Positions 1 to 6,721 of a stretch of 7,821 bases of DNA are shown here, one piece after another. The position numbers and the translations under genes are program-made. The stretch's first letter is position 1, and each line of letters starts with the position of its first letter. Source of the DNA: Acetobacteraceae bacterium. Lineage in GTDB: Bacteria; Pseudomonadota; Alphaproteobacteria; Acetobacterales; Acetobacteraceae. The notes beneath the pieces are model-generated. The model saw nothing but the letters and a program-made list of their open reading frames with translations. It did not search any database and was not told where the DNA came from. The DNA is taken from positions 1-7,821 of the forward strand of contig JASHVB010000541.1 in assembly GCA_030039695.1 (NCBI GenBank). The letters are read 5' to 3'.

Positions 1-764
1 TTGATGCCCTGATTGCCCAGTTCCTTGTAGAATGGCACGTTGGCGTCGCCGTTGATGGTGGACACCACCGCGGTCTTCTTGCCGGCAGAGCCGAAGTTCT
101 TGATCCTGGCGACTTCGGTCTGCCAGTCGGAGAACGCGAACGGCGTATAGTTCTCCAGGATATCCTCGTCGGCGACGCCAACCGACTTCAGGAATCCGCG
201 CATGATTGCGTTGGAGGTGCGCGGATATACGTAGTCGGTGCCTTCCAACACAAAGCGCTTCACCGAGCCGCCGGCGGGGCTCATCAGCCACTTCAGCACT
301 GGGACCGCCTTGTTGTTGGGCACCGAGCTGCCATAGAAAACGTTCCTCGATTGCTCTTCGCCTTCGTATTCCAGCGGATAATAGAGCAAGCCGTTCAGCT
401 CCTCGAACACCGGCAGCACGGACTTGCGTGAGACCGAGGTCCAACAGCCGAATACCGCCGAGACCTTGTCTACGGCCAGCAACTGGCGTGCCTTCTCAGC
501 GAACAGAGGCCAGTTCGATGCGGGATCGACCACGATCGGCTGGATTTGCCGCCCCAACACGCCGCCGCGCGCGTTCTGCTCAGCGATTTCCATCAGCATC
601 AGGTCCTTCAGGATGGTCTCGCTGATGGCCATGGTGCCAGACAGCGAGTGCAGAATTCCGACCTTGATCGGCGCGGGGGTTGCGCGCGCAGGCCGCAGTC
701 CAAGACCGCCGCCCAGCGGAAGCGCTGCGGCGGTACGCAGCCAGGAACGACGCGTGAGTCTCAT
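1..764 (-). CDS. urtA: Urea-type ABC transporter substrate-binding protein (5' part, continues past left edge)
   Basis: Periplasmic ligand-binding subunit of a UrtABCDE-type importer, which delivers urea or a related short amide to the inner-membrane permeases. The 254 visible codons begin at ATG 762-764, preceded by a good ribosome site (GAGGAG, 7 nt spacer). Residues 1-28 form a signal peptide with a twin-arginine motif (TRRSWL, then a hydrophobic Ala/Leu/Gly stretch and ARA), so Tat export is likely. The mature part opens with IKVGILHSLSG. It then carries the blocks typical of UrtA: VDPASNWPLFAEKAR, FGCWTSVSRKSVLPVFEELNG, GTDYVYPRT and STINGDANVPFYKELGNQG. About 150 C-terminal residues of a normal UrtA (roughly 400-440 aa) lie outside the window. 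The stretch around YGSSVPNNKAVPVLKWL departs from the usual UrtA version, so this could be a paralogue with a shifted ligand. It is divergent from the MocR-MOSC-rubredoxin gene. The family call is strong; the exact ligand is inferred. Confidence 0.9.
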   Translation of the reverse strand, partial: MRLTRRSWLRTAAALPLGGGLGLRPARATPAPIKVGILHSLSGTMAISETILKDLMLMEIAEQNARGGVLGRQIQPIVVDPASNWPLFAEKARQLLAVDKVSAVFGCWTSVSRKSVLPVFEELNGLLYYPLEYEGEEQSRNVFYGSSVPNNKAVPVLKWLMSPAGGSVKRFVLEGTDYVYPRTSNAIMRGFLKSVGVADEDILENYTPFAFSDWQTEVARIKNFGSAGKKTAVVSTINGDANVPFYKELGNQGI

Positions 765-1207
765 CGGAGGGCTCCTCTGACGTGTTGACGCCTGTCCAGG
801 CATCCGCGGACCGGGCAAGACGGGGGTGCCGTTGCCTGCCCTCGGACCTCCCGTACCGCGCAGCTTGCCGGGGTGTGGCGTCCAGCCCAGAGAGCCACCC
901 CCTGGAAATGGCATGGAGCCAGCACGCACCGCCTAACCCGTGCCGGCGGGGCCGGCGCGTCCCATCAATGCCTTTTTCGCAGGCGCTCTTCCCACAGTTC
1001 GGCCGGTTCTGCTCAAATGAAGGGCGACTCGCTCCGCACACACCAGGGCGAGGGAGCCAGTCCTTGAGAACGAGATGAGTCCAGTTGGTGCGTGCCTGAT
1101 CCTGGAAAGCCGGCGTTTTGCCTCGCAGGCGACGTGCCAACCGTGATAACGCGGAACTGGCCCCACCCTTCCACTGGCGGAAATCCGCGGCAAGCCGGAG
1201 TGTTGCT
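765..1207. promoter_or_regulatory. Divergent intergenic region between urtA and the MocR fusion gene
   Basis: A 443-nt stretch that must hold promoters for both divergent genes and the likely operator of the MocR regulator, since MocR proteins usually bind between themselves and a divergent target. The urtA ribosome site is at its left edge (772-777, minus strand). On the plus strand, TGATAA at 1144-1149 resembles a -10 box upstream of the preferred GTG start, but its best -35 partner (TTGCCT, 1118-1123) is 20 nt away, so the promoter is weak evidence only. A GC-rich block around 940-960 contains GCCGGC twice, three bases apart. No convincing gene, terminator or riboswitch was seen. Reading frames crossing the region on both strands have no recognisable content. 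Confidence 0.4.
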
Positions 1208-3886
1208 GTGCAAATACAGATCAGTCTGCTGCTGGACCGGGCACAACCACAGACGCTGACCGCCCAGATTGTGGGCCAAGTGCGTGACGCTATTCGCCTC
1301 GGACGCATCACCCCGGGTGCACGCCTCCCGTCCTCGCGGCGGCTCTCGGAACAGTTGGGCATCGCGCGCAATACCGTGGTGCGCGCCTACGAGACGCTGC
1401 TTGTGGAGTGCTACGCCGAATCCCGCCCGGCGTCGGGCATTTTCGCGACACTGCCGCCGCTCGATCCGCGCCCAGCCGCGGTACCCTCAGTGCTTGGTAA
1501 AGCGATCGCGCGCCACCGCGATGGGGCAGCGTTCGCACCCCCACCGCTCACCGCGCGCTTGCATGCCAGCGGCGTCGGGGTTGGTCAGGCGCCCATCCGC
1601 AACCGGCTTTCCTTCGATTTCGCCCCCGGCCGACCCGACCCGACATTGTTCCCGTTGAAAGCTTGGTGCCGGCTCTTGCGCGGCTGCTTGGCCCAGGGGG
1701 CCGCCGCCGGCCTAGCGCAGCCCGTCGACCCATTCGGGCTTGTCGCGCTGCGGTCGGCGGTCGCCACTCACGTCGCGTCGGCGCGCGGTATCGTCGCGGA
1801 GCCGGGCCAGGTCGTGATCACCAGCGGCACCGCCGAGGGGATCGCGCTCGCGGCGCGGCTGCTGCTACGCCCGGGGTCGGTCGCAGCGATGGAAATGCCT
1901 GGCTATCGCCCCGCGGCGGCGGCGTTCGAGGCCGCTGGCGCAGAACTGACCGGCGTGCCGGTGGATGAAGAGGGATTGTTCCCTGCCGAACTGCCCTCGC
2001 CCCCGGTCGCACTGCTATACCTGACCCCGGCGCACCAATACCCGACCGGGCATGTGCTCTCGCCGGTTCGGGCAGAGCAGGTCGTCCGATGGGCGCGGCG
2101 TACGGGGTGCGTGATCGTGGAAGACGATTGCGGCGCGGATTTCCGCTACGAGGGCGTGGCCGCCCCGGCGCTGGCCGCCGACGCTCCGGAATGCACGATC
2201 CATCTCGGCACGTTCTCCCAGTCGCTCGGGGCCGGCTTGCGCCTTGGCTACATGGTTGTACCGCCGTCGCTGGTCGACGCGGCGCGCGCGGCCAAGGCTT
2301 TGCTGAACAGTGGCAGCCCGTGGCTGGAGCAAGCGGCGATGGGGGAGTTCATTCGCAACGGCAGCTTCGTCTCTCACACCCTGCGCATGCGCACAGCCTA
2401 TCGCGAGCGGCGCGACCAACTGCTGGCCGCCCTGCAACGGCATTTCGGGGACGTTGAGATCAGCGGCGATATCGGCGGTATGCATTTATTCTGGCATCTG
2501 CCCGCCGGCGTGCCCGATGCGGCGACCGTGGAGGCGCTGGGCCGGCGGGCCCGTGTGGGGGTGTATTCGCTGCCGTCAGGCAATGTGTGCGACCCCTCGG
2601 CGGGAGTGCTGTCGCGGCGCGGCATCATGCTCGGCTATGCCGGCCTGGCCCCAAAGCAGATCGAACAAGGCATCGCGCGGCTGTCCGACGCTGTGGACGA
2701 TGCTCTGGACGGGCACCGCATCGAATACGGCGATTTGCTCGCCTTGCGGCCGAGCGTGTCCCGCGCCGCGACGGGGTCAGTTGCCCGGCGGGCGGGCAAA
2801 CCGGCTCCATGGTTTCGCCAGAAACCGGCTCTCCCGCCGCCGCCGCCGCGCCGGGCAGACTCCCGTGTGACGACGGGGGAGGGAGCCAGCGCGCCGATGC
2901 CAGTGATCACCGGACTTTACAAGTACCCGGTCAAGGGCCTGAGTCCGCAGCCGATCGAGACGGTTAGGGTCCGAGCCGGGCAGCCTTTTCCATTCGACCG
3001 CGTCTTCGCCTTGGCACGCCCGGGCACTGCGATGAACGTCGGGGAACCCAAATGGGCGAAGAAAGGCCTCTTCGTCATGCTCATGCTGGACGAGGGCTTG
3101 GCCCGCGTGCGCACCCGTCTCGATGAGGCGACGCTGCAACTGACCGTCCTGGACGGCGAGCGTCCGGTGCTGGCCGCTGACCTCGCGGATGCCAATGGAC
3201 GGGCGCGGGTCGAAGCGTTCTTCCATCGGCTAGCGCCGAGCCTGGCGGCACCGCCGACCCTGGTGCGGGCTCGGGACGGCCATTTCATGGACAAGCCTGA
3301 CAACGTGGTGTCGCTGATCAACCTCGCGACCGTGCGCAGCCTCGAGGCTCTGTGGGGCTTTTCCATCGACCCGCTGCGGTTCCGCGCCAACATCTACATC
3401 GACGGCGCTGCGCCGTGGGAGGAATTCGATTGGATCGGCAATGATATCCGGCTGGGCGAGGCAGTGTTTTGGGTCGATCGCCGCAACGGCCGTTGCGGGG
3501 CAACCAATGTCAATCCGGCCACCGGGCGACGCGACCGCGATATTCCGGCCTCGCTGCGCAAGGCGTTCGGCCACAAAGACCTCGGCGTGTACCTGGTGGC
3601 ACGTACCGACGCCGATCTGTCGGTGGGTGACACGCTGCAACGGCCGGGGGGTGTCGCGCCGCGCGCCTCAGCGCCGAAGAACGCAGGTATGCCAGCTGGC
3701 GCTCGAACCTTCATCTGCCGCGGCTGTTACTACATCTACGACGAAGCGCAGGGTGCGCCGGCGACCGGTGCCGCAGCTGGCACGTGCCTGGCCGATCTGC
3801 CCGCCGACTGGCGCTGTCCCGACTGCGGTTCGGAGAGGGGACTGTTCCGGCCGCACGGTGCAGAACCGGGATTGGCAAGCCAATGA
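1208..3886 (+). CDS. MocR-family regulator fused to a MOSC domain and a C-terminal rubredoxin
   Basis: One uninterrupted 892-residue reading frame made of three families. Residues about 10-80 are a GntR-type winged helix (TAQIVGQVRDAIRLGRITPG, LPSSRRLSEQLGIARNTVVR). Residues about 135-505 are a fold-type-I aminotransferase-like domain typical of MocR regulators (VITSGTAEGIALAARLLL, LTPAHQYPTG, VIVEDD, GLRLGYMV, RRGIMLGYAGL). A Pro/Arg-rich linker (about 515-560) follows. Residues about 564-812 are a MOSC domain (YKYPVKGLSP, FDRVFAL, RCGATNVNPATGRRD) with the conserved cysteine at 763. Residues about 833-885 are a rubredoxin with Cys 837, 840, 870 and 873 in CxxC...CPxCG spacing. MocR proteins are normally about 450-500 aa, so the tail is extra. 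The expected PLP lysine is Gln338 and the usual tyrosine after EDD is Cys308. GTG 1208 is preferred because GGAG lies 7 nt upstream and the domain starts there; an in-frame TTG at 1118 lacks support. Divergent from urtA, which it may regulate. The domain calls are strong; the combined function is unknown. Confidence 0.88.
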   Translation: MQIQISLLLDRAQPQTLTAQIVGQVRDAIRLGRITPGARLPSSRRLSEQLGIARNTVVRAYETLLVECYAESRPASGIFATLPPLDPRPAAVPSVLGKAIARHRDGAAFAPPPLTARLHASGVGVGQAPIRNRLSFDFAPGRPDPTLFPLKAWCRLLRGCLAQGAAAGLAQPVDPFGLVALRSAVATHVASARGIVAEPGQVVITSGTAEGIALAARLLLRPGSVAAMEMPGYRPAAAAFEAAGAELTGVPVDEEGLFPAELPSPPVALLYLTPAHQYPTGHVLSPVRAEQVVRWARRTGCVIVEDDCGADFRYEGVAAPALAADAPECTIHLGTFSQSLGAGLRLGYMVVPPSLVDAARAAKALLNSGSPWLEQAAMGEFIRNGSFVSHTLRMRTAYRERRDQLLAALQRHFGDVEISGDIGGMHLFWHLPAGVPDAATVEALGRRARVGVYSLPSGNVCDPSAGVLSRRGIMLGYAGLAPKQIEQGIARLSDAVDDALDGHRIEYGDLLALRPSVSRAATGSVARRAGKPAPWFRQKPALPPPPPRRADSRVTTGEGASAPMPVITGLYKYPVKGLSPQPIETVRVRAGQPFPFDRVFALARPGTAMNVGEPKWAKKGLFVMLMLDEGLARVRTRLDEATLQLTVLDGERPVLAADLADANGRARVEAFFHRLAPSLAAPPTLVRARDGHFMDKPDNVVSLINLATVRSLEALWGFSIDPLRFRANIYIDGAAPWEEFDWIGNDIRLGEAVFWVDRRNGRCGATNVNPATGRRDRDIPASLRKAFGHKDLGVYLVARTDADLSVGDTLQRPGGVAPRASAPKNAGMPAGARTFICRGCYYIYDEAQGAPATGAAAGTCLADLPADWRCPDCGSERGLFRPHGAEPGLASQ
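2878..2899 (+). promoter_or_regulatory. Possible internal ribosome site and ATG for a separate MOSC-rubredoxin product
   Basis: A purine-rich GGAGGGAG (2878-2885) precedes an in-frame ATG at 2897-2899 by 11 nt. That ATG sits exactly at the first residues of the MOSC domain (MPVITGLYKYPVKG). Initiation here would yield a free 329-residue MOSC-rubredoxin protein ending at 3886. The spacing is longer than ideal, so this is a suggestion. It may also be the fossil start of a gene that was once separate. Confidence 0.3.
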
Positions 3887-4623: not shown

Positions 4624-5172
4624 TTAATCGCCGGTTTGCTTATTGACATTGACTGTTACCATTGCGCCGAACGCTGGAGGATCTGCCAGAAGGTCAGGCG
4701 TCACGCCGCACGCCAGCGCACGCAGGATTTTTAGTGGCCCACCATGTGATATCACAGTACAGTCAACGGCCTCCTGAATAAGGGTCTGCAGTAGGTCCCT
4801 CACCCGGGAGAGAAGCGCCTCGCCGGATTCTCCGCCCGGCGGGGCGAAGCCAGACGGATCGGCTGCCCAGCAATCGAGTGCCGACGGTCCAATATCAGTC
4901 CAGCGCGCTCCCTCCCATCGACCGAAGTTCAGTTCCTTCAGCCGATTGTCTACTCGCAGTCGTGCCTGTGCTGAGGTTGCTGCCGCCTGTGCCGGGATCA
5001 GACAACGTGTCGCCGGGCTGCTCCAGACCATCGCTACGCGGTGGCGGCACGCGGCTTCGGCGATTGCGACAATCGCCGGCCCGGTATCTGAACGCAGCGG
5101 CACATCCAGGTGACCGTAGCAGATCCCCGTATCGACATTGGGCGTGGGGTGTCGAACCAACAGGAGTTTCAT
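4624..5172 (-). CDS. cobC: CobC-like histidine phosphatase (probable alpha-ribazole phosphatase)
   Basis: A 182-residue member of the histidine phosphatase (phosphoglycerate-mutase-like) family. The CobC branch removes the phosphate from alpha-ribazole phosphate or the late cobalamin phosphate intermediate in the cytoplasm. The catalytic set is present: the nucleophile motif LLLVRHPTP (Arg7, His8), Arg56 in SSPATRC, the acid in ELNFGRWEG (Glu80 to Glu87 region), and the second histidine in ISHGGP (His143). GICYGHLDVPL after the first motif is typical of CobC proteins, as is the length. ATG 5170-5172 has only a close, weak ribosome site (AGGA, about 3 nt away), and the membrane-protein gene ends 65 nt upstream, so co-transcription is likely. 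The general family is certain. The specific substrate is inferred; other small-molecule phosphatases share this layout. Confidence 0.82.
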   Translation of the reverse strand: MKLLLVRHPTPNVDTGICYGHLDVPLRSDTGPAIVAIAEAACRHRVAMVWSSPATRCLIPAQAAATSAQARLRVDNRLKELNFGRWEGARWTDIGPSALDCWAADPSGFAPPGGESGEALLSRVRDLLQTLIQEAVDCTVISHGGPLKILRALACGVTPDLLADPPAFGAMVTVNVNKQTGD

Positions 5173-5237: not shown

Positions 5238-5834
5238 CTATGCCGGCCCGGACGAAACCTTGCCGCTCCGCGTCAAGACGGGGAAGTGTGCGAAAGAACC
5301 ACGGGGGCGCTGCGCGGGAATCGCCCCACTATACCGCAAAATCTCATGCGTCCCGACGAGGGCCACGGTCCATCCAAGGTTCAGCAGCGTAACATGGGCG
5401 ACGATTGCCCTTGTGAATGCGCCTGCGCCGCCAAGCACAAAGGTCACCAAAAATAACCCGCCTTCGTAGGCGCCAAACGCCAACACAAAAGCTGCCCCGA
5501 CGGCGGCGGCGACGTTGCGAAGCCCGAGTCGCATTACTGCGCTGGCGAGAGCTGCCGCCAGCAAAGCCGCCGCGCCGATCGCGAAGCCCCACAAGATGGT
5601 ATCGACGGTCCAAGGGTATCCAAGCACGACGAAGCCAGTCGCCTGGTTCACAAGCCAGATTGCTGCCACAGTGAGCAGAGCCGCTCTCGTAGAGAGCGTA
5701 TACCCCGTTGCTACCGCAAAGGCGACAAAGGGCGTGATGCAGGCAAACTCCCAGCTAATGACGGCAGAAATCGTCACAAGCACGACGGGAAGGAACCACG
5801 ATTGGCGGATGACCGCGCCAGCGAAATAAGCCAT
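5238..5834 (-). CDS. Six-helix integral membrane protein, possible transporter component
   Basis: A 198-residue inner-membrane protein. Hydrophobic spans fall at about residues 13-27, 30-47, 52-71, 79-102, 107-133 and 141-163, followed by a basic C-terminal tail of about 30 residues. Notable features are Cys32 in EFACITPF, the NQATGF and GYPW turns after helix 3, and FGAYEGG in helix 5. There are no ATPase, signal peptide or soluble domains. The start at 5832-5834 is supported by AGAGGA 8 nt upstream. Its size, helix count and place next to a cobC-like gene resemble the solitary S-component type of vitamin transporter (for example BtuM for B12). I cannot confirm homology by eye; a metal or small-molecule channel of unknown kind is equally possible. 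Probably in an operon with the cobC-like gene and divergent from the ferredoxin-like gene. Confidence 0.75.
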   Translation of the reverse strand: MAYFAGAVIRQSWFLPVVLVTISAVISWEFACITPFVAFAVATGYTLSTRAALLTVAAIWLVNQATGFVVLGYPWTVDTILWGFAIGAAALLAAALASAVMRLGLRNVAAAVGAAFVLAFGAYEGGLFLVTFVLGGAGAFTRAIVAHVTLLNLGWTVALVGTHEILRYSGAIPAQRPRGSFAHFPVLTRSGKVSSGPA

Positions 5835-6031
5835 TTAGAAGTCCTCTCTCGAGAATACGGTGTGCCATACCTCGAACCGATGTAACGGGCTGGGTCCGGT
5901 CGATCCGGTCCATCGCGTCCGCACAATCTATCCCGTAGGGTCGACCGAGACCAGTCGGGCTCGCCTATTTTCCCGCGCAACCCCAGTCTATGTGGAGGGC
6001 CTGTGCACGCCAATTGAGCCGGAGAACCCTG
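5835..6031. promoter_or_regulatory. Divergent intergenic region between membrane-protein and ferredoxin-like genes
   Basis: Contains the ribosome site of the membrane-protein gene (minus strand, AGAGGA near 5843-5848) and, at the other end, GGAGA at 6021-6025 for the GTG start at 6032. GGTCGACC (5939-5946) is an 8-bp palindrome. TCCGGTC occurs twice, 2 nt apart, around 5894-5909. No cobalamin riboswitch core (GCCACTG box or the conserved GGGAA...CCCGC pattern) was found on either strand. Confidence 0.35.
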
Positions 6032-6721
6032 GTGCGCGCGACGTGGGAAACATTGACGGGCGATGTGGCACAACTGGGGTTCGCGCTCCGCGGTGCCTTT
6101 CATCCGGTTCCGGAAGACGGAGTGCCCGTGCTCTCGGACGGAGCGCCGGCGCTAACGGTTGTGTTGCTGGGTTGGACAGGCGGTGACCAGTGGCCAGTGT
6201 TCGCGGCTTCGAAAGAGGCCAATGACGGTATTCCCGATCCGCTCAACCGATGGTCCAAGCGGCTGATCGATCAAATCGCGGCTGATCTCGACGGCTCGGC
6301 CTTCTATCCATTCGGTGGGCCTCCCTGGCTTGATTTCCAGCGCTGGGCGCTGAGAGCCGAGCCGGTCTATCGCTCGCCCTTGGGTTTGCTCATTCATCCG
6401 AGATGGGGCTTGTGGCATTCCTACCGCGGAGCACTTGGGCTTCGACAATGGTTTGAGCTCGGCCCGCACGAAGATGGCCCCAATCCCTGCGACCCGTGCT
6501 TGGAGCGGCCGTGCCTTTCTGCCTGCCCGGTCTCCGCCTTCGCGCCGGGCGCCTCCTACAACTACGCTGCCTGCCGGCAACACCTTCAAGGCGCCGGCGA
6601 GGAATGTCGGGCGATGGCATGTGCCGCGCGTCGAGCTTGCCCGATCGCGCCGGAGAAGCGGTACTCCGCGGAGCAAGCCGCATTCCACATGCGGGCGATC
6701 CTCGTGAACCGGCTCGGCTGA
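6032..6721 (+). CDS. Ferredoxin-like protein with eight clustered cysteines (QueG-related type)
   Basis: A 229-residue protein likely to carry two [4Fe-4S] clusters. Residues 1-140 are a cluster-free domain (GFALRGAFHPVPEDGVP, FYPFGGPPWLDFQRWA, SPLGLLIHPRWGLWHSYRGA). From residue 153 come Cys 153, 156, 161 and 165 (PCDPCLERPCLSACP), then Cys 181, 192, 197 and 203 (last one in ACP). Conserved HPxxGxWHxYRxAL followed by such cysteines recalls the C-terminal half of epoxyqueuosine reductase QueG and similar cobalamin-linked reductases. The protein is much shorter than QueG, so it is not that enzyme. GTG 6032 is chosen because GGAGA lies 6 nt upstream and homologous-looking sequence starts nearby; ATG 5990 (243 aa) has no ribosome site. 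It is divergent from the membrane protein/cobC pair, which hints at a shared B12-related role. The iron-sulfur call is firm; the function is not known. Confidence 0.82.
   Translation: MRATWETLTGDVAQLGFALRGAFHPVPEDGVPVLSDGAPALTVVLLGWTGGDQWPVFAASKEANDGIPDPLNRWSKRLIDQIAADLDGSAFYPFGGPPWLDFQRWALRAEPVYRSPLGLLIHPRWGLWHSYRGALGLRQWFELGPHEDGPNPCDPCLERPCLSACPVSAFAPGASYNYAACRQHLQGAGEECRAMACAARRACPIAPEKRYSAEQAAFHMRAILVNRLG

Follow-up and report, generated by a model that had tools for sequence, protein, structure and literature searches.

A gene joining a MocR regulator, a MOSC domain and a rubredoxin

The stretch of DNA analysed here (the window: 7,821 nucleotides of contig JASHVB010000541.1, assembly GCA_030039695.1, from an Acetobacteraceae bacterium) carries on its forward strand a gene that fuses a MocR-type transcription regulator to a MOSC domain and a rubredoxin. 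The gene is a single uninterrupted frame of 892 amino acids, running from a GTG start at 1208 to a stop codon that ends at 3886; an in-frame TTG lies upstream at 1118, and the frame is open from there too. Pfam recognises in the protein, in this order and each above its curated cut-off, GntR (residues 18-79), Aminotran_1_2 (164-441), MOSC (692-810) and Rubredoxin (835-879). The winged helix thus occupies 1259..1444 (+), and is followed, as in MocR proteins, by an aminotransferase-like domain of fold type I (approximately residues 136-500, 1613..2707, +; Pfam, NCBIfam and alignment with GabR); NCBIfam assigns residues 17-492 to PdxR-type MocR (361 bits, cut-off 320). An earlier note, made from the letters of the window, had claimed a three-part fusion in one continuous frame with cysteines at residues 763, 837, 840, 870 and 873. 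The open frame and the Pfam and NCBIfam domains bear this out, and all five cysteines are found at these residues in the translation from GTG 1208.

The C-terminal half begins, after a variable linker, with MOSC_N and MOSC in an mARC/YcbX-like fold (residues 564-813, 2897..3646, +; Pfam and structure-model comparison). Residues 1-250 of the structure model align with mARC1; Pfam MOSC_N itself is below the cut-off in the window (18.7 bits versus 25) and is precomputed for some family members. No significant single-sequence match to the MOSC part was found in the PDB, where mARC1 appeared at E 0.26. The conserved MOSC cysteine is Cys763 (codon 3494..3496, +), by homology a molybdenum ligand according to its conservation and to what PMC10637980 says of the family. 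The rubredoxin (residues 834-882, 3707..3853, +; Pfam, conservation and structure model) has two CxxC pairs, Cys837/840 and Cys870/873, and closely matches electron-carrier rubredoxins in structure-model comparison. The earlier note had linked this half to sulfur or molybdenum cofactor (Moco) chemistry; its fusion stands, and the half is probably better described as a Moco-dependent N-reductase fold. The two readings that it offered, a redox-responsive regulator and an enzyme tethered to its regulator, are still conjectures.

Conservation and spread of the fusion

A protein search covered 5.8 billion proteins and scored 7990 candidates (length 0.55-1.75 times that of the query, a filter that hides separate short genes, which were sought in further searches). 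It returned 866 matches with E ≤ 1e-3, of which 120 proteins of 827-943 amino acids, including the window's own (P0001), were listed and compared. Precomputed Pfam annotation gives MOSC in all of them, and lacks rubredoxin in three (P0028, P0030, P0101), GntR in two (P0015, P0035) and the aminotransferase in one (P0022). In the alignment Cys763 is retained in 119 of the 120, window included, and the four rubredoxin cysteines in every one. A separate protein, P0311, is a MOSC protein that continues past a truncated rubredoxin into sigma-70 region 4 domains, probably through a frameshift or chimera.

A scan of genome contigs yielded 34 loci, of which 24 carry the fusion (L001-L023 and L028; L014, L016 and L022 start inside the gene). 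The fused loci are titled Alphaproteobacteria, except L003 (Proteobacteria only) and L013, titled Frankia sp. RB7, which groups with Bradyrhizobium and is likely mislabelled or contaminated. When 385 genomes of the class were searched with the MOSC–rubredoxin query, 144 gave a match. Those with the three best matches (G009, G351 and G005, which was taken as the centre of this comparison) are fused, and below them the next match falls to E 1e-66, mostly to MOSC-only or rubredoxin-only relatives. By these counts the fusion is common in metagenomes and rare per species.

It is extremely improbable that an assembly or annotation artefact joined two genes, and we rejected this reading because full-length fused relatives occur as 119 other listed proteins and in 24 fused loci of other assemblies. 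The earlier note had allowed that relatives might always encode the MocR and MOSC–rubredoxin parts separately, or that the linker might be broken. Fused relatives abound, and the linker (2741-2896) is part of the conserved fused protein.

The divergent neighbour and the shared intergenic region

On the reverse strand (1..764, cut by the window edge) lies a gene for a UrtA-like substrate-binding protein (Pfam, NCBIfam), which carries a twin-arginine-like signal, RRSWLR. Wherever upstream sequence is present, in 22 of 22 fused loci counting the window, such a gene lies divergently upstream, and no other gene family occurs in more than five loci when frames overlying the two genes themselves are set aside. 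The truncated window copy scores 327 bits against the UrtA cut-off of 492.75, which the corresponding copies in nine of nine genomes exceed (513-535 bits). Those genomes also have a second UrtA copy (551-566 bits) about 1 kb from an urtB match, and in all nine the urtB matches over cut-off are located elsewhere than at the fused locus. The UrtA-like gene lacks the adjacent permease and ATPase genes of UrtA, and no permease family recurs beside it in the fused loci, the downstream side in the window lying beyond the edge. The copy of L021 is nearest in the PDB to 8tg1, to urea-binding proteins and, more distantly, to AmiC. In three loci a [2Fe-2S] ferredoxin frame (L011 7828-8382; L023 7959-8420; L028 8017-8394) shares 4 to 40 bases with the end of the urtA-like gene, with starts assigned mechanically, and may encode a further electron carrier.

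The intergenic region shared by the two genes holds repeated boxes of the MocR type ACTGGnCC, which lie, as predicted operators of a MocR protein do, beside the divergent gene. An expectation-maximization (EM) search in 19 upstream regions found AACTGGACCCATCGCG with a score of 122, versus 46-56 in four Markov-resampled sets, which were run with fewer restarts. From this set L012 and L016 were dropped as near copies, and L006 and L028 fell out via frame choice, as L014, L020 or others could also do. Scanning 21 regions (L018 missing) with the site matrix gave 81 sites, where the remainder of the loci would predict 10.2, a comparison that is partly circular. Two direct copies 24 base pairs (bp) apart are present in 12 of the 21 regions, and at least 7 of those 12 have an inverted copy further on; this is the '→ → ←' layout given in PMC5320631 as the commonest among MocR motifs. 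In the window, the putative operator boxes 2 (1076..1087, -, 18.6 bits) and 3 (1154..1165, +, inverted, 15.1 bits) are accompanied by a weak putative box 1 (1052..1063, -), which is placed by its relatives' spacing, 24 bp from box 2, and is not among the sites of at least 6 bits. A second conserved element, GAGAGCC-N8-RAAWTGC followed by TGGnnCCA, lies at 890..911 (to about 925; +), 126 bp upstream of the urtA-like start, and the window copy has one or more mismatches. Its exact pattern occurs at this locus in four of nine genomes and once elsewhere. It is possibly a promoter or a distal operator.

Loss of the PLP lysine

In GabR the motif GTFSKSL contains a lysine that we take to be the one binding pyridoxal 5′-phosphate (PLP). 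In the alignment with GabR the window protein reads GTFSQSL, with Gln338 (codon 2219..2221, +) where the PLP-binding lysine is expected, and the Schiff-base lysine of MocR proteins is therefore missing from the window copy. Among the 120 listed proteins this position is K in 65, Q in 34, R in 14, T in 3, N in 2, S in 1 and L in 1, so that 55, including the window, lack the lysine. The corresponding figures for 23 locus rows (window included, L014 and L020 left out) are K 11, R 5, A 3, Q 2, S 1 and one gap; the Bradyrhizobium-type trio L012, L013 and L015 also has Gly for the aspartate aligned at 307. On a tree of 80 of the 120 proteins (quick method, lysine column masked), lysine versus any other residue needs 7 changes, at least 6 of them forced, which indicates repeated loss. 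Conservation of the winged helix is 0.83 in the rows without the lysine versus 0.79 in those with it, and Tyr233 is retained in 65 of 65 rows with the lysine and 42 of 55 without. The PLP site thus decays, whereas the winged helix and the metal ligands are maintained. The protein is MocR-like in its architecture and predicted boxes, and we do not claim covalent PLP binding for the window copy.

Another view would make the protein a standard PdxR-type regulator, of vitamin B6 or amino-acid metabolism, whose additional domains are decorative, the rubredoxin serving as a structural zinc knuckle. The NCBIfam PdxR match above cut-off fits this view, and iron and zinc are indistinguishable by sequence. 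However, the UrtA-like gene alone recurs beside the fused gene in more than five loci, the window copy is without the PLP lysine and the rubredoxin is close to electron carriers, which together make such a regulator a very improbable explanation.

The linker and the origin of the fusion

The linker (residues 512-563, 2741..2896, +) is variable among the 120 proteins and modelled with low confidence, except for a P-A-L triplet at 540-542 conserved in 118-120 of them. At its end, Met564 (ATG 2897..2899, +) is retained in 114 of the 120, and most of the free-standing MOSC–rubredoxin proteins printed start at or next to this position. The junction ATG might therefore be a second start, from which free MOSC–rubredoxin would be made beside the full-length regulator. 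Shine–Dalgarno pairing is stronger upstream of the junction ATG than upstream of internal Met codons elsewhere (269 compared, p 0.002), and the pairing energy of the window copy, -12.1, is matched by 1.3% of 300 synonymous reshuffles, a figure uncorrected for the window being the best of 22 fused genes. Over these 22 genes, however, the encoded amino acids account for the strength of the pairing (33 of 300 simulations gave values as low). Support for an internal start is weak, and we consider two products from one gene unlikely.

On a tree of 87 rows (those left after named removals, P0252 and P0263 being without the cutting motif), the 43 fused sequences all fall, together with 19 free-standing ones, in a clade of 62 rows; outside it are P0328 and a group of 15 free-standing MOSC–rubredoxins, beta- or gammaproteobacterial where named. 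The fused state requires 10 changes on this tree, at least 5 forced, and 12, at least 8 forced, on an earlier one (85 of 168 sequences; P0007 and P0088 without the cutting motif). The simplest history is that a free-standing MOSC–rubredoxin was fused once, in Alphaproteobacteria, and that the MocR half was later lost several times; support for the deep branches is weak, and more than one fusion event is a possible alternative. A DNA-level check of six free-standing loci (L024-L027, L029 and L030) found no MocR match in them, the L030 gene spanning two frames. The other 'standalone' proteins are known from gene calls, and frameshifts in fused genes may account for some of them (the end of P0147 resembles that of P0080). 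The free-standing gene of L025 and of L026 is flanked by rpsD- and glutaredoxin-like genes (named by reading their sequences), and in L019 the fused gene and its urtA-like neighbour occupy the same site, which suggests loss in place.

A possible regulator–enzyme

Taken from sequence and predicted structure, the arrangement is probably that of a bifunctional regulator–enzyme, in which an N-hydroxy reductase with a built-in electron donor is joined to the protein that regulates the urtA-like gene. The protein would bind the intergenic boxes as a MocR dimer, controlling both the urtA-like gene and itself. Its C-terminal Moco-dependent reductase would act on N-hydroxylated small molecules, with electrons supplied by its own rubredoxin, as YcbX is supplied by its fused ferredoxin. 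The likeliest substrates would be N-hydroxyurea or hydroxamates, whose products, urea or amides, would belong to the UrtA-like ligand class. According to PMC11513889, mARC1 turns N-hydroxyurea into urea, which provides a possible link from the enzyme to a urea-type binding protein.

The most speculative step is that DNA binding is set not by PLP but by the MOSC–rubredoxin half, through its redox or substrate state, above all in the lineages without the lysine. Feedback from the enzyme's state is worth a wager because the PLP lysine has been lost. The protein would then be a sensor-swapped MocR, in which PLP sensing is fading and the built-in molybdenum N-reductase and rubredoxin set transcription of the urea-type binding protein, an idea we put forward tentatively. 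If true, it would let the cell read substrate turnover or electron supply directly at a promoter.

Alternatively, the two halves may be tethered for co-production only, an autonomous enzyme of N-hydroxy detoxification being joined to a PLP-responsive or PLP-blind MocR with no effect on DNA binding. Free-standing MOSC–rubredoxin relatives and recurrent apparent splits are consistent with this, as are the length, variability and low model confidence of the linker, and N-hydroxylated bases are reduced by YcbX and YiiM (PMC3831636). Yet the fusion persists while the PLP lysine decays, and the P-A-L triplet is kept in the linker; both hint at communication between the halves, and prove none. Tethering without communication is a possible explanation, which we doubt.

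Several observations weigh against the regulator–enzyme we favour. The PLP lysine is present in 65 of the 120 proteins and in 11 of the 22 locus rows that have a residue there, so those members may sense PLP. With the MOSC–mARC1 match at E 0.26, the substrate is unreadable from sequence, and since AmiC is also a relative, UrtA-likeness does not prove a urea ligand. The motif figures are inflated, because the matrix derives from the regions that it was used to scan, fewer restarts were run for the resampled sets and the loci are related; the paired-box pattern had 12 matches in nine genomes versus 13 for a reversed control, giving no evidence of a wider regulon there. Some MOSC–rubredoxin genes are free-standing and have no urtA-like gene beside them, so the enzyme can do without the regulator (L029 has about 340 bp upstream, too short to show that the urtA-like gene is absent).

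Relation to known systems

With the MocR/GabR/PdxR subfamily of GntR regulators the fused family shares the winged helix, the fold type I aminotransferase-like domain, the divergent neighbour and the repeated TGG boxes. It differs in its extra 330 amino acids of MOSC–rubredoxin, in the absence of the PLP lysine from 55 of 120 members, the window included, and in having a urea-type binding protein as neighbour; it may be a MocR protein that works without PLP. PutA also combines an enzyme and a DNA-binding domain in one chain and has a divergent target, but its domains are unrelated, and the mechanism here is a proposal. From mARC and YcbX the family differs in having a rubredoxin, not a [2Fe-2S] ferredoxin or cytochrome b5, and a DNA-binding regulator. 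Rubredoxins are joined to likely redox partners in other oxidoreductases (alkane monooxygenase 8f6t, flavorubredoxin 4d02, hydroxylamine reductase 7e0l; AlkB-rubredoxin fusions are described in PMC7145413), whereas here rubredoxin is paired with a MOSC protein that is preceded by a regulator.

The earlier note knew of no described class of this kind, and our literature searches likewise gave no description. Among the open-licence papers listed, none combined MocR with either of the other two domains, or those two with each other in one protein, and those listed for GntR, the MocR family and the urea ABC transporter had nothing on this system. The main text of PMC5320631 contains neither MOSC nor rubredoxin as a word; rubredoxin is absent from PMC6677901, PMC4944035 and PMC5026710, and occurs 0 times in the main text of the mARC review PMC10637980, where the MOSC–rubredoxin pairing accordingly goes unmentioned. 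Databases list the fused proteins under MocR names and the free-standing P0255 as 'YcbX/rubredoxin'. The parts are known; the combination is new and conserved. The cellular role of MOSC molybdoenzymes is unsettled, and according to PMC10637980 doubt has been cast on the physiological occurrence of their base-analogue substrates. With a MOSC enzyme coupled to a regulator that has a single conserved neighbour gene, the question of that role becomes directly testable.

Other features

The window has no Rfam match up to E 0.5 and no PADLOC defence match. At the free-standing locus L030, 8447-9589 encodes a fusion of a major intrinsic protein (aquaporin family) with a cyclic-nucleotide-binding domain. 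Downstream of the fused gene in the window, 4624-5172 (-) encodes an alpha-ribazole phosphatase-like protein (TIGR03162, 132 bits, below the cut-off of 162.9) and 5238-5834 (-) a hydrophobic, membrane-like protein without a Pfam match. A cysteine-rich frame at 5990-6721 (+), also without a Pfam match, contains a CxxCxxxxCxxxCP-like stretch and is perhaps an iron-sulfur protein.
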